Of a stretch of DNA of 64,000 nt, positions 29,988 to 35,212 are shown piece after piece. Each line of letters opens with the position of its first letter. Position 1 is the stretch's first letter. The translations under genes and the position numbers were made by a program. Under the pieces are notes generated by a model, which was not told where the DNA came from, made no database searches, and saw nothing but the letters and a program-made list of their open reading frames with translations. Location of the stretch: contig NZ_CP089507.1 in NCBI RefSeq assembly GCF_021233355.1, positions 682,001 to 746,000 of the forward strand, given 5' to 3'. This DNA is from Luteimonas fraxinea (GTDB lineage Bacteria; Pseudomonadota; Gammaproteobacteria; Xanthomonadales; Xanthomonadaceae).

Positions 29988-30590
29988 TCACATGGGCGCG
30001 AGGCCCGCACGGAGGTAGCTGACGAGGCCGTCGAGCAGCATCTGCACCGAGATTGCGACGAGCAGCATGCCCATCAGTCGTTCGATCGCGGTCAGCGCAC
30101 GCGCACCGAGCAGCTTGTAGAGATAGGTCGCCGAGAACAGGATCGCGGCCGTCGCACCCCAGGCGATCAGCAGCGCGAGGCTCCATTCGCCGAGCCGGTC
30201 AGGCTCGTTGCTGCCCATCAGCATCACCGCGGCCATGCCGGATGGGCCGGCGACCAGCGGGATCGCCATCGGCACGATGAAAGGTTCGCCGTCCGGGATC
30301 TCACCCATCAGCCCTTCCGGCGGAGGGAAGATCATGCGGATGCCGATCAGGAACAGCACGATGCCGCCGGCGATCGCCACCGACTCCTGGCGCAGGTGCA
30401 TGACCTCGAGCGCGTACTTGCCGGCCCACAGGAACAGCATCAGCACGACCAGCGCGATCAGCAGCTCGCGGGCCAGCACGATGCGCTGCCGCTGCGGGGT
30501 GAGCCGCCGCAGCATGCTCAGGAACACCGGGATGTTGCCCAGCGGATCCAGGATCAGGAACAGCAGCAGCGCAGCGGAGGCGATGGTCAT
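29988..30590 (-). CDS. MarC family integral membrane protein
   Basis: A 200-residue protein with six hydrophobic segments (ASAALLLFLILDPLGNIPVFL, GIVLFLIGIRMIF, PMAIPLVAGPSGMAAVMLM and others). DPLGNIPVFL and PLVAGPS are diagnostic of the MarC/UPF0056 family, whose function is not established despite the early link to the mar locus. The ATG at 30590 overlaps the stop codon of the upstream SDR gene (ATGA), so it is the last gene of the grxD-SDR-marC unit. Confidence 0.9.
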   Translation of the reverse strand: MTIASAALLLFLILDPLGNIPVFLSMLRRLTPQRQRIVLARELLIALVVLMLFLWAGKYALEVMHLRQESVAIAGGIVLFLIGIRMIFPPPEGLMGEIPDGEPFIVPMAIPLVAGPSGMAAVMLMGSNEPDRLGEWSLALLIAWGATAAILFSATYLYKLLGARALTAIERLMGMLLVAISVQMLLDGLVSYLRAGLAPM

Positions 30591-31342
30591 GCGGAGCGCG
30601 TCCCGTCTGGTGCCCACAGCTGTCCGCGACGCGACGCGCCTGCAGACGACAGCAACGCGACGCAGTGGGCGGCGACCTCAACGGGCGACCGGGCGATGCG
30701 ATCTTCGGCCTCGACGTGCGCCCTGGCCCGCAGCGGCGTGCGCATCGGCGGCGGCAGCAGGCCACTGACGCGGACGGGCGCATCGCCAAGTTCGGCCTGC
30801 AGCATGCCGACCAGTGCAGACAGCCCGGCCTGGGCCAGTCCGTAGCCGCCCCAGTAGGCACCGGTTGTACGCGCCGGATCGTCGATTGCGAACACCACCG
30901 AGGAATCGCCGGCGCGGCGCAGCAACGGCAGGCAGGCCTGGGTCAGCCACCAGCGCGCGGTGAGATTGACGTGCAGCGCGCGTGCGAACGCGGCCGGATC
31001 AGTGAGCTCAAGCGGGGTCAGTCCATCGAAGGACGCAGCGACGTGCAGGATGCCGTCGAGCCGGCCGAATTCCGCCTCGATCCGCGCGGCGAGCTCGGCA
31101 TGATCGTCCGGGCTGGCGCCTTCGAGATCGAGCGGATACAGCGCGGGCGCCGCGCCGGCCGTCTGCAGGCGGTCGTGCAGACGATTGAGTTTGGGCACGC
31201 GTCGACCGAGCAGCACCAGCGATGCACCGGCATCGGCGCAGGCCAGCGATGCCGCCTCACCGAGTCCACCCGCGGCGCCCACGACCAGCACGACGCGCCC
31301 GGCCAACGCGCCCGGCACGACCTCGGAAGCCGCCGTAATCAC
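30587..31342 (-). CDS. Short-chain dehydrogenase-like protein, YciK-related, lacking catalytic Ser and Lys
   Basis: A 251-residue Rossmann protein with the cofactor motif VVGAAGGLGEAASLACADAG at about 20-40 and the structural Asn in HVNLTARWWLTQ. Aligned by eye with E. coli YciK, the catalytic Ser region TSSSVG reads AIDDPA here, and the YxxxK motif reads YGLAQ, so Tyr is kept but Lys is Gln and Ser is missing. Classical dehydrogenase activity is therefore doubtful; a binding or regulatory role is possible. The GTG start overlaps the grxD stop (GTGA) and the stop overlaps marC, so the three are coupled. Confidence 0.85.
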   Translation of the reverse strand: MITAASEVVPGALAGRVVLVVGAAGGLGEAASLACADAGASLVLLGRRVPKLNRLHDRLQTAGAAPALYPLDLEGASPDDHAELAARIEAEFGRLDGILHVAASFDGLTPLELTDPAAFARALHVNLTARWWLTQACLPLLRRAGDSSVVFAIDDPARTTGAYWGGYGLAQAGLSALVGMLQAELGDAPVRVSGLLPPPMRTPLRARAHVEAEDRIARSPVEVAAHCVALLSSAGASRRGQLWAPDGTRSA

Positions 31343-31659
31343 GCCGCCAGCACCTCGGCCACCATGCGCGACAGCTCGCCGGATTCGTGCAGTTCGAGGG
31401 TGATGTCACATCCACCGATCAATTCGCCGTGGATGAAGAGCTGCGGGAACGTCGGCCAGTTCGAGAACCGTGGCAGGTTGGCGCGGATCTCAGGCGCATC
31501 GAGGACGTTGATCGTGCGGTAATCCTTCGCACCGGCCTCGTGCAGCGCGGCCACCGTGCGACTGGAAAACCCGCACATTGGAAACTGCGGCGTGCCTTTC
31601 ATGAACAACACGATGGCATGACCGTCGATTTCGGCCTGGATGTCTTCGAGGATCGACAC
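31339..31659 (-). CDS. grxD: Monothiol glutaredoxin, Grx4 type
   Basis: A 106-residue CGFS glutaredoxin. Residues include FMKGTPQFPMCGFSSRTVAA with the CGFS active site, TFPQLFIHGELIGGCDI with the cis-proline loop, and a C-terminal GG-like helix. Family members bind a [2Fe-2S] cluster with glutathione and deliver it to target proteins, often with BolA. The start is GTG (first residues MSILEDIQAEID), eight bases after AGGGAG. E. coli GrxD has 115 aa, consistent with this choice. It heads a coupled operon and is divergent from the SOD-like gene. Confidence 0.93.
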   Translation of the reverse strand: MSILEDIQAEIDGHAIVLFMKGTPQFPMCGFSSRTVAALHEAGAKDYRTINVLDAPEIRANLPRFSNWPTFPQLFIHGELIGGCDITLELHESGELSRMVAEVLAA

Positions 31660-31767
31660 GGTGACGCTCCCTGTGGACCTCGCCGCAGGCACGGGGCCTG
31701 CGGGGATCGGGTTTCGGAATTGGTGCATTCTATCGCGTCGTCGCCATCGACCAACGGACCGCCGTCC

Positions 31768-32355
31768 ATGCCCCTCGAACTCACCGCCCTGCCCTACGAC
31801 CGCACCGCGCTGGAGCCGCATCTGTCGGGCGACACGCTCGACCAGCATCACGGGCATCTGCAACGCGGTCATATCGAGCGGCTCAACGCCCTGCTCGCGG
31901 GTGGCGAACTCGCCGACGCGCCGCTGGAGACTATCGTCCGCAAGGCGCAGGGTGCGGCCTTCGACCACGCCGCGCAGGTCTGGAACAACAGCTTCTACTG
32001 GCACTCGCTCAAGCCTGCCGCGGCCGGTGGTGGTGGCGACCCGAAAGGCCGTCTGGCCGAAGCGATCGCGCGCCAGTTCGGCGACTTCGCCGGATTCCGT
32101 TCGCGTTTCGACGCACTGGCCTTGTCGACGTTCGGCGCAGGCTGGGTCTGGCTGCTGCAGCGTCCCGACGGCCGCCTCGCGCTGGCGGCGACCGCGAACG
32201 CGGCCACGCCGATCACCGGACAGGACACGCCGCTGCTGGCGATCTCGCTGTGGGAACACGCCTGGTATCTCGACTACCGCGACAACCGGCAGAAGTATCT
32301 CGACGCGTTCTGGCAGCTGGTGAACTGGGACGCGGTGGCCGCGCGTTTGCGCTAA
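31768..32355 (+). CDS. Fe/Mn superoxide-dismutase-like protein missing two metal ligands
   Basis: A 195-residue protein with the full SOD fold signature: LTALPYDRTALEPHLSGDTL, AAQVWNNSFYWHSLKP, FGAGWVWLLQRPDGRLAL and WEHAWYLDYRDNRQKYLDAF. Compared with E. coli SodB, ligand His26 is kept (H27) and His160 is kept (H164). Ligand His73 is Asn (N74, in WNNSFYW instead of WNHTFYW), and ligand Asp156 is Ser (S160, in SLWEHAW instead of DVWEHAY). The gateway residues His30 and Tyr34 are Leu31 and His35. Normal SOD chemistry is unlikely, so an automatic label of superoxide dismutase would mislead. The frame is intact and ordinary in codon use. It is divergent from grxD and ends 8 bp from the converging EAL gene. 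Confidence 0.88.
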   Translation: MPLELTALPYDRTALEPHLSGDTLDQHHGHLQRGHIERLNALLAGGELADAPLETIVRKAQGAAFDHAAQVWNNSFYWHSLKPAAAGGGGDPKGRLAEAIARQFGDFAGFRSRFDALALSTFGAGWVWLLQRPDGRLALAATANAATPITGQDTPLLAISLWEHAWYLDYRDNRQKYLDAFWQLVNWDAVAARLR

Positions 32356-32363
32356 AGCTGCCG

Positions 32364-33632
32364 CTATTCGTTATGCGGCTGCGGATGCGACAGAGCTGAC
32401 CGCTCCAAAGCCGCGCCAATGACGTCGTCAGCAGGCGCAGGCCGCCCGATCAGATAGCCCTGCACGAAGTCGCAGCGCGCCTCGTGCAGCAGTGCGAGCG
32501 TGGCTTCGTCCTCGATGCCTTCGGCCACGACCGTCAGATCGAGATCGTGCGCCAGCTCGATCATCGTCGCGACGATCCGGCGCGCCCGCAGGTCGTCGAC
32601 CATGTCCCGCACGAAGCTGCGGTCGATCTTCAACTTGTCGATCGGCAGCCGCCGCAGGTACGCCAGCGAGGAATAGCCGGTGCCGAAATCGTCGATCGCG
32701 ATGCGGACGCCGCCCTCCCGCAACTGGCCCAGCAGATGACTGCAGCGCACGATGTCCCGCATCAGCGCGCTTTCGGTGATCTCGAACACCAGCGCGTTGC
32801 CGGGTACATCCCAAAGTCGCAGCAGGTCGAGCACCTGGTCGACGAAGCCGGGCAACTGCAGGGCATCGACCGAAAGGTTCACCGCGATACGCGTCGCCTG
32901 CCCTGCCCTGCGCAGTGTCGCCAGATGGCGCAGCGCGACGTTGACGTTCCAGCGCGTGAGTTCGCCGATCATGCCGCCGCGCTCGGCCACGTCGATGAAG
33001 ACGTCCGGCGGCACATTGCCGAGTCGAGGATGGGTCCAGCGCGAAAGCGCCTCGAAGCTGTGGATACGGCGATCGGGCAGCGCTGCGATGGGCTGCAGAT
33101 GCACGACGAGCTGGTTGTCGGCAATGGCCGCGCGCAGATCGTCATGCAGCGTATCGAGCGGAACAGGCGGCGCCTTCCAGAACGCGTGACGCTCGACGCC
33201 GTCCAGGGCGTCGTCGCAGGCGCGGTCGGCGCGGCGGCACAGCAACTCGGCCTCATCACCGTCTTCCGGCGCGATCGCGATACCGGCCACGACAGAGGCC
33301 TGTGCCCGCTGACTGCCGAAGTCGAGCGGCTGTTGCAGGGCGCGCACGAACTTGGCTGCGCCGAGCGCCGCGTGCGCGCGGCCGCGCAATGCGGGCAACA
33401 GGACCAGAAAATCGTGCTCGCCGATCCGCACCACACGATCGCCCGGCCGCACCGCGGCTTCCAGTGCAGTCTGCATCGCGTGCCCAAGCGCTTCGCCAGC
33501 CGCGTAGCCCAGCGTGAGTTCGATCTCACGCACGCGCTGCGCGCGCAACACGACCACGCCGAGCGGCGCGTCTGATCGCGCCGCCTGCAGGCATGCGGTC
33601 ACTTCGGCCAGCGCCGCCGAGTGGTTCAGCAC
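32364..33632 (-). CDS. EAL-domain c-di-GMP phosphodiesterase with degenerate GGDEF domain
   Basis: A 422-residue cytosolic protein. Residues 1-150 form a degenerate GGDEF domain in which the signature reads GEHDF (71-75), so cyclase activity is unlikely; it may bind GTP and regulate. Residues about 160-410 are an EAL domain with the catalytic set present: EAL 194-196, Asn252, Glu284, Asp314-Asp315 (IDDFGTGYSSLAYL), Lys335 and Glu371 (EGIEDE). It should hydrolyse c-di-GMP to pGpG. The start is GTG, 19 bp after the stop of the HD-GYP gene, so the two probably form one transcript. There are no membrane segments. Confidence 0.9.
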   Translation of the reverse strand: MLNHSAALAEVTACLQAARSDAPLGVVVLRAQRVREIELTLGYAAGEALGHAMQTALEAAVRPGDRVVRIGEHDFLVLLPALRGRAHAALGAAKFVRALQQPLDFGSQRAQASVVAGIAIAPEDGDEAELLCRRADRACDDALDGVERHAFWKAPPVPLDTLHDDLRAAIADNQLVVHLQPIAALPDRRIHSFEALSRWTHPRLGNVPPDVFIDVAERGGMIGELTRWNVNVALRHLATLRRAGQATRIAVNLSVDALQLPGFVDQVLDLLRLWDVPGNALVFEITESALMRDIVRCSHLLGQLREGGVRIAIDDFGTGYSSLAYLRRLPIDKLKIDRSFVRDMVDDLRARRIVATMIELAHDLDLTVVAEGIEDEATLALLHEARCDFVQGYLIGRPAPADDVIGAALERSALSHPQPHNE

Positions 33633-33651: not shown

Positions 33652-34914
33652 TCACAGGAACAGATCGACCGGATCGAGACCGTAGGCGCCGGGCGCCAGT
33701 GCGCTGGCGATCCGCACCGGATCGTCGCTGTTGGCGCGCACCATCAGGTCGAGCGAGTGGAACTGCGACAGCACCTGCTTGTCCGGATCGGTCAGCACCA
33801 TCACCCGCGGCTGCAGGCGCCGCGCCGCGTTCTGCGCGGTGACGATCGCCACTTCGCCGCTGCTCAGTTCCACCAGCGCGCCGATCGGATAGACGCTCAT
33901 GCACTGCATGAACTGCTCGACGATCTCGGCCGCGAACTGGCTGCCGCGGCCGCGGTACAGCGACTGCAGCGCGATGTGCTGCGCGGCCGCCGGCTGGTGC
34001 GGGCGTTCGCTGGTCATCGCGTCATACGCATCGACGACCGCGGCAACCCGCCCCAGCAGCGGAATCGCATCGCCTTCAAGCCGCCGCGGATAACCGCCGC
34101 CATCGATCCATTCGTGATGCGTGCGGATCATGTCTCGGACGTGCTCGGGCACCGCGCCGCCGGCATCGACGATCGCGAGGCCCTGCTCGACATGCGCCTG
34201 CATCCGCCGGCGCGCATCGTCATCGTATGCGGCGCTGCTGCCGAGCAGATCCGGATCGAGCCGCAACTTGCCGACATCGAGCAGCAGCGCGCCGCTGGCC
34301 ATGTCGATCAGCAGCTCCTGCGGCAAACCGACATGACGGCCGAAGGCGGCCGCGAGTGCGCTGCACGACAGCGCGTGCCGGTATTCGTAGGCGCCGCGCG
34401 CGCGCAGTGCATCCAGCCACAGGAATGCGTCGGCGTTGCGCACCAGGCTGCGGACCATGGGCTCGACCGCACTGCGCACTTCCTCGACCGCGACCGCGCG
34501 GCCCTCGCGCACGTCGTCGAGCACGCGTTCGGCGAACGCCGCGGCCTGTGCGTGCGCTTCGCGCGCCTGCGGCAGTTCCTGTTCGAACTCGATCTGTTCG
34601 GGATAGGTCGCCGCGCCCTGCAGCGCCGATATCTCGTCGTTGCCGTAGGCGCGCCAGCGCGGTTTCAGCGGCGCGGCAGGTTTCGGCGGCGCAGCATCCA
34701 GCAACTGCAACGCCGGGCCAACTGGCGCAAGGCCCCGCTCGACATCGACGAAAACATACGCGCACAGACCGTCAAAGGTCCGGATATCGTCTTCGGACTC
34801 GATCATCACCCCCTGCAACAGGAACGGCGTGCCTTCCCACGGCCGGTCCAGGCGGCAGACATACATCCCCACCTTCAGCTCGTTCACCGCGAGCTTGCGT
34901 TCGTCCAGCGTCAT
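33652..34914 (-). CDS. DUF3391/HD-GYP protein with altered HD dyad
   Basis: A 420-residue protein. The N-terminal DUF3391 domain (ERKLAVNELKVGMYVCRLDR) is followed by an HD-GYP domain at about 175-350: EYRHALSCSALAAAFGRH, then LLLDVGKLRLD, HVEQG, THHEWIDGGGYPRRLEGD and AAVVDAYDAMTSERPH. The GYP loop is intact, but the usual HDxGK reads LDVGK (Leu212-Asp213), so one metal-binding His is lost. HD-GYP proteins hydrolyse c-di-GMP or pGpG; activity here is uncertain. The start MTLDERKL is used because DUF3391 begins there; the open frame upstream is arginine-rich. It is probably cotranscribed with the EAL gene. Confidence 0.88.
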   Translation of the reverse strand: MTLDERKLAVNELKVGMYVCRLDRPWEGTPFLLQGVMIESEDDIRTFDGLCAYVFVDVERGLAPVGPALQLLDAAPPKPAAPLKPRWRAYGNDEISALQGAATYPEQIEFEQELPQAREAHAQAAAFAERVLDDVREGRAVAVEEVRSAVEPMVRSLVRNADAFLWLDALRARGAYEYRHALSCSALAAAFGRHVGLPQELLIDMASGALLLDVGKLRLDPDLLGSSAAYDDDARRRMQAHVEQGLAIVDAGGAVPEHVRDMIRTHHEWIDGGGYPRRLEGDAIPLLGRVAAVVDAYDAMTSERPHQPAAAQHIALQSLYRGRGSQFAAEIVEQFMQCMSVYPIGALVELSSGEVAIVTAQNAARRLQPRVMVLTDPDKQVLSQFHSLDLMVRANSDDPVRIASALAPGAYGLDPVDLFL

Positions 34915-35212
34915 TGTTGCGTCGGCCCTCCCGGCCATGGACCCGGCCACCCCCTCGGCGTCGCCATCGCGGTCGCGCCTGGGGCGGCAACACGCGGTAC
35001 GGCGAACCGGCACGACGGGTCAGGTCCGGCCGGGCGCACAGCGTACATTCTGTCGCCGTCGATGCCGCGTGGTGGCTGGCGGATTTTTCGAATCGGGCCG
35101 AAAACGTCAAACGCGTTGCGTGGCGTCCGGCATCGTCCGCGGGCCTGGCGCCCGACCCTGCCCGGGCGAACCGCCTATGATCGGTAGCCGACCCGATGCA
35201 GGAGTGTCCGCC

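Follow-up and report, generated by a model that had tools for sequence, protein, structure and literature searches.

The window, a stretch of 64,000 nucleotides of Luteimonas fraxinea (positions 682001-746000 of a 4.0 Mb genome in a single contig), carries a SodB-like gene at 31768..32355 on the forward strand. Its open reading frame begins with an ATG at 31768, ends with a stop at 32353-32355, contains no internal stop and encodes 195 amino acids. The best solved relative of the protein is the E. coli iron superoxide dismutase (FeSOD; sequence of 1ISA), matched over the whole length with E = 1.7e-62, and both Fe/Mn SOD Pfam domains are recognized, PF00081 with 63.9 bits (cut-off 27) and PF02777 with 119.8 bits (cut-off 20.9). 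The score against the NCBIfam FeSOD equivalog NF007832, for which the window protein alone was scored, is 231.4 bits, under the cut-off of 348. Residues are numbered below as in E. coli SodB unless the window residue is given.

E. coli SodB has a complete set of metal ligands and gateway residues, from which the Luteimonas protein differs at positions 29, 30, 34, 66, 73 and 156. Alignment to 1ISA agrees with every residue call made by eye in a preliminary description of this DNA. Two of the four ligands that characterize an Fe/Mn SOD enzyme are present, namely His26 (window His27, codon 31846..31848, forward strand as for all codons below) and His160 (His164, 32257..32259), and the other two are replaced, His73 by Asn74 (31987..31989) and Asp156 by Ser160 (32245..32247). 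The gateway and proton-relay residues His30 and Tyr34 are replaced by Leu31 (31858..31860) and His35 (31870..31872), respectively, and the second-sphere Gln69 is retained as Gln70 (31975..31977). Beyond the list of the preliminary description, Lys29 is changed to His, His31 to Gln and Asn66 to His67 (31966..31968). Trp77, Trp122, Glu159 and Tyr163 are also kept, so that the E-H motif formed by Glu159 and His160 is present; His160 has a dimer-bridge role in these enzymes.

Upstream, and divergent from the SodB-like gene, lies grxD (31339..31659, reverse strand), encoding a monothiol glutaredoxin of the Grx4 family (TIGR00365, 135 bits, cut-off 117.1), whose end is overlapped by a gene for an SDR-family oxidoreductase (30587..31342, reverse strand), a conserved neighbor. 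The 108 bp between grxD and the SodB-like gene (31660..31767) contain a block, CATTCTATCGCGT, nearly invariant in an alignment of 15 Luteimonas loci, which resembles a -10 element, TAGAAT, in the direction of grxD. A scan of positions 31300-32500 found neither a promoter (sigma-70-like site) nor a terminator. Downstream, a gene for a GGDEF/EAL protein is convergent with the SodB-like gene. The preliminary description had read the vicinity of grxD as a hint of an Fe-S or redox function. This reading was not upheld, and grxD adjacency was discarded as functional evidence, because SodB copies with full ligands adjoin grxD too: grxD was found within the fetched stretch at all 141 SodB loci read outside Luteimonas (111/111 and 30/30 in the two sets described below). 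The adjacency is thus ancestral, and together with its position in the SodB tree, the divergent grxD locus identifies the window gene as a SodB orthologue by descent.

Searches of the host genome with both Pfam domains returned two Fe/Mn SOD genes, the window gene and one at 3.058 Mb, in addition to one Cu/Zn SOD match. The genome search for a canonical SOD proposed in the preliminary description was therefore fruitful, since the gene at 3.058 Mb has all four ligands as well as His30 and Tyr34. It has Gly at the column of the FeSOD Gln69, and its close relatives carry the Gln at the alternative site; by sequence, it is of the Mn type (SodA).

Across the genus, 52 Luteimonas genomes were searched and the loci at the SodB position were fetched. 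Among the 48 grxD-adjacent SodB copies found, 47 lack both His73 and Asp156, and an intact SodA-type gene, inspected in each case, is present in all 47 genomes that carry such a ligand-less copy. The only canonical copy of the 48 is that of genome G019, which forms a basal branch in the careful tree. The incomplete draft G038 has a canonical SodB at a contig end that is grouped with other genera by a quick tree, so this genome may be misplaced in Luteimonas. No SodB is present at the grxD locus of G002 and G043, where purK (Pfam PurK_C, ATP-grasp) flanks grxD (loci L329 and L328), and the draft G034 gave no match at all. Three further sequences were left out of these counts. L092 (G033) and L093 (G002) belong to a divergent third type of Fe/Mn SOD encoded away from grxD, with DYEH aligned for DWEH and odd gateway residues; L096 (G031) is a C-terminal SOD fragment, with 73 amino acids read, separate from two full genes.

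Within the 47 ligand-less copies, position 73 is Asn in 15, Thr in 12, Leu in 7, Asp in 5, Glu in 5 and Gln, Cys or Ile in one each, and position 156 is Ser in 25, Cys in 19, Asn in one, Pro in one and a gap in one. His26 is retained in 44 copies, His160 in 45 and Gln69 in 46. Tyr34 is lost from all 47, and the replacement of His30 by Leu is local (10/47), His being kept there in 23/47. As in the window, where the preliminary description had noted an intact frame, all 47 frames are open. Sequencing error or frameshift was ruled out, since genomes sequenced separately show identical residues at these sites, for example L003-L006 and L016 at 91-97% identity, and the ligands are missing from 47 of the 48 copies of the genus. 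In two copies, L098 2225-2794 (G041) and L099 2390-2968 (G029), the whole W-E-H segment is lost with the frame still open, and L099 also lacks His26.

Outside Luteimonas, 232 genomes were sampled and SodB was read in 141 of them. A set of 111 comprised the best matches listed together with genera having two SODs; 30 weaker-scoring genomes with a single SOD were added to check for bias, and among these 29 full copies were intact and one, shortened, was intact where readable. In the genomes with one Fe/Mn SOD match, every full-length SodB (85/85; 56 and 29 from the two sets) is intact at the ligands and at Lys29, His30, Tyr34 and Gln69. A second SOD was scored where a genome gave at least two Fe/Mn SOD matches, the second match of G100 being weak and partial. 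In the 55 genomes of this class all SodB copies keep the four ligands. Substitutions at His30, Tyr34 or Gln69 are seen in 27 of them, a change confined to Lys29 in another 12, and no change at any of these sites in 16. The changed groups include g16, which bears the signature of named Xanthomonas proteins, g7, corresponding to the X. translucens/sacchari/albilineans group, and g10 (Pseudoxanthomonas). Among 17 Pseudoxanthomonas genomes, only P. jiangsuensis lacks ligands (His26, His73 and Asp156); the others have 15 full copies with ligands and one copy that is broken up. Four genera (g9, g21, g27 and g38) possess a second SOD alongside an intact SodB. In two loci of g9 (L243 and L244) this second SOD has intact ligands and an Ala in the column of Tyr34, a placement that depends on the alignment.

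The history of these losses was followed in a careful tree of 66 sequences, from which the active-site columns were removed and in which 21 ligand-less Luteimonas copies were sampled; g17 and g46 were omitted, and in a quick tree both fell in the same clade. Every changed copy falls in one long-stemmed clade (support 100/99); also in this clade are G019 and g38, whose copies are intact. The preliminary description had asked whether the ligand-less variants form a conserved clade beside grxD. They do in that the 21 copies form one clade (96/93), and site 73 is not fixed as Asn. Five Luteimonas copies with W-P-H and long branches were placed apart from the rest by the quick tree, next to other long branches, so their single origin is less sure. 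On the careful tree, ligand loss takes two changes and gateway loss six. An AU test in which the 22 rows were constrained to one group rejected a shared origin for Luteimonas and P. jiangsuensis (p = 7e-7), and in the latter the ligands were lost independently. A causal effect of a second SOD on SodB was also considered and dropped, as independent pairs gave it no support (two pairs lie on starred branches, and neither shows a difference in site state). Since the second SOD is found mostly on one clade, and g9, g21, g27 and g38 keep an intact SodB despite it, the data show an association between the two, resting on essentially one clade, rather than a cause.

Constraint was estimated by dN/dS (NG86) in seven groups that together cover 26 of the 47 copies. 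Two groups are single pairs, and the values are to be read only relative to those of neighboring genes. In the subclade of the window (seven close relatives, 21 pairs), dN/dS is 0.082, versus 0.113 for grxD and 0.069 for sodA; dN is 0.048 versus 0.018 for sodA, and dS 0.59 versus 0.27. The L072 subclade gives 0.057 versus 0.062 for its grxD. Three other subclades give 0.183, 0.145 and 0.098 against 0.046, 0.021 and 0.055 for grxD, the last two being one pair each, and the two W-P-H groups reach 0.31 and 0.35 against 0.09 and 0.16. Of the seven subclades, five thus have a SodB-like ratio that exceeds the grxD value 2- to 7-fold. For comparison, canonical SodB in seven genera ranges from 0.09 to 0.27. 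Mean column entropy in 38 genomes (a set without L098, L099 and the seven W-P-H copies) is 0.96 for the ligand-less SodB, 0.52 for GrxD and 0.56 for SodA, and in 56 single-SOD genomes 0.44 for the canonical SodB and 0.53 for GrxD. Conservation of 95% or more is reached in each of the two SodB sets by 39 columns, including Gln69, Trp71, Trp77, Trp122, Trp158 and His160. Taken together, the dN/dS and entropy comparisons show that the ligand-less SodB is under selection, tightly in the window subclade and genus-wide less tightly than an active SodB. A pseudogene is not supported in the window subclade, where plain decay is unlikely because a dN/dS of 0.08 is comparable to those of grxD and sodA. 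The view of the preliminary description that the fold is repurposed rather than decaying is therefore sustained for the window subclade, which is under purifying selection, and is weakened by the several other subclades that are less constrained than their own grxD.

Since it has lost metal-holding residues while selection preserves it, the Luteimonas SodB-like protein has probably ceased to be the antioxidant enzyme of its database name. In SOD chemistry, the redox cycling of Fe or Mn depends on the ligands and the gateway; with two of the four ligands and the gateway lost, such cycling is very unlikely here. Because the Trp shell, Gln69, His160 and the W-E-H motif persist, the fold is most likely the ordinary SodB homodimer, in which the old site would most likely hold neither Fe nor Mn and would have no SOD activity. 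The genus-wide clade, the open frames and the purifying selection make a retained non-catalytic or new role likelier than decay in the window subclade, and a binding role is the most economical, because the protein is kept without its catalytic residues. On balance we favor, with somewhat better than even confidence, an ancestral FeSOD retired where the MnSOD works and kept as a folded, non-catalytic binding protein. The family's ancestral SodB, which has stayed at the original grxD locus, would have been freed from catalysis where SodA handles superoxide, and would be retained as a non-catalytic binding, scaffold or regulatory partner. Milder changes of the same gene are found in Xanthomonas, Pseudoxanthomonas and other genera, and suggest a stepwise loss, probably of Asn66 and Lys29 first, then of Tyr34, His30 or Gln69 in some genera, and finally of His73 and Asp156 in Luteimonas.

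It is unlikely, but would account for part of the data, that the gene is instead a remnant in slow decay, a redundant SodB on which selection has weakened, constrained mainly by solubility and folding and heading to loss. The entropy, which in the 38 genomes exceeds that of both GrxD and SodA, the ratios of 0.31-0.35 in the W-P-H subclades and those clearly over grxD in three others, the disappearance of even the W-E-H segment from L098 and L099 and the two SodB-less grxD loci (G002, G043) are all in agreement with such a drift. However, in the window and L072 subclades dN/dS is not above that of grxD, canonical SodB itself gives 0.09-0.27, and neither the 47 open frames nor the persistence of Gln69 in all copies but one would be expected of a remnant. 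We regard as improbable the hypothesis of a relocated metal site, in which His26, His160, new histidines at 34 and 66 and Ser or Cys at 156 would make the protein a metal sensor, a metal store or a new enzyme. In a version of this reading with the same low probability, SodB would be neofunctionalized, with a moved metal or ligand site that serves in metal or redox sensing or in a new catalysis; the stepwise change across the Lysobacteraceae would then be a natural gradation between the enzyme and a protein that is no SOD. Asn66 is replaced by His in 40/47 copies and by Cys in 4/47, Tyr34 by His in 30/47 and by Asp in 6/47, Ser or Cys occupies position 156 in 44/47 with His26 and His160 nearly always kept, and the mean His count is 7.6 in 45 ligand-less copies versus 6.2 in 73 others. 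Nevertheless, 11/47 copies have Leu, Gln, Gly, Thr or Arg at position 34, and the loss of Asn66 is not specific because relatives with normal ligands have lost it too; the fold geometry, which places sites 34 and 66 some turns from the old metal, also counts against a new site there. Because position 73 varies freely, several subclades are laxer and two loci are without SodB, no sharply delimited new active site can be made out. Most doubtful of all is a pseudo-subunit that would heterodimerize with the Mn-type SOD and tune its amount, stability or activity. The W-E-H motif in most copies, the presence of SodA in all 47 genomes and the functional SodM-SodA heterodimers described for S. aureus in the available part of PMC13008324 would fit this proposal, but identity to the own SodA is only about 33% and Glu159 is replaced by Gln in 6/47 and by Pro in 7/47.

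The retired, binding-protein reading can be compared with what is known of related systems. The available passages of PMC6322740 report that the FeSOD of X. citri (Xac3/XAC2677) carries His31Cys and Tyr35Glu (own numbering), that its activity is improbable and that it is Xanthomonas-specific in this respect, the FeSODs of Stenotrophomonas, Arenimonas and Lysobacter having a conventional site; the Xanthomonas MnSOD is probably essential and the FeSOD predicted inactive or of unknown function (PMC6322740). Our g16 copies, mostly Cys/Glu at 30/34 (6 copies) and beside grxD in 6/6, share with the Luteimonas gene the replaced gateway but keep all four ligands, so the window protein, with ligands lost and Leu/His at 30/34, is not an inactive FeSOD of the Xanthomonas type. 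In g7, the X. translucens/sacchari/albilineans group, Leu34 occurs with Glu69 in 13/13. Contrary to the statement in those passages, changes at the active site extend beyond Xanthomonas. The series seen here broadens the published prediction of inactivity beyond a single genus to a clade, in agreement with the reason given there for the seeming essentiality of MnSOD in Xanthomonas. In S. maltophilia, according to the accessible text of PMC6479884, SodB is expressed with growth and "marginalized" beside two MnSODs; SodA2 and SodB both act against metabolic superoxide, with SodA2 dominant, and loss of SodB barely changed viability; its authors suggest further functions. Unlike the Luteimonas copy, that SodB has conserved ligands and is credited with a minor superoxide defense (PMC6479884); in g25, if this genus is Stenotrophomonas as we infer, Lys29 is the sole change at the tabulated sites.

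Relatives of SOD act inside larger assemblies in eukaryotes, as chloroplast PAP9/PAP4 (FSD2/FSD3, which are matches of the window protein) and as yeast mitoribosomal mS42/mS43, proteins of SOD ancestry. These belong to known complexes, whereas the Luteimonas protein is not known to be part of one. The available part of PMC8998825 describes mS42/mS43 as a heterodimer. The parent protein of 1XTM, an SOD-like protein from B. subtilis, is inactive because two metal-ligand histidines are missing (PMC6322740, passages available); it belongs to the Cu,Zn SOD family and is not homologous to SodB, so that the likeness lies in the missing ligands. The metal preference of Fe/Mn SODs is treated in PMC10172142 and PMC13008324, whose available sections make no mention of ligand-less members, and the SODs of L. 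abyssi are listed as antioxidant enzymes in the accessible part of PMC4687298. No report of ligand loss in Luteimonas SodB appeared among the literature matches listed, most subscription papers being outside their coverage.

The Fe/Mn SOD is a textbook case of a conserved metalloenzyme, and annotation labels members of the family as active SODs; public records indeed name the relatives of the window protein "superoxide dismutase", as the preliminary description had anticipated. At one locus of one bacterial family, a single orthologous gene forms a graded series of loss, from intact where there is one Fe/Mn SOD, through a changed gateway (Xanthomonas and several Pseudoxanthomonas) and lost ligands (Luteimonas and, independently, P. 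jiangsuensis), to absence from the locus. With this series, what maintains the SOD fold after catalysis ends becomes directly testable.

Two genes beyond the SodB-like gene, both on the reverse strand, also show altered motifs. The GGDEF/EAL protein (32364-33632) has GEHDF, a degenerate GGDEF signature, together with an EAL motif, and is likely a phosphodiesterase or a c-di-GMP effector. Next to it, a DUF3391 and HD-domain protein (33652-35013) retains HHEWIDGGGYP and has LDVGK (H to L) as its HD motif; it is possibly a second degenerate enzyme near the SOD-like gene.
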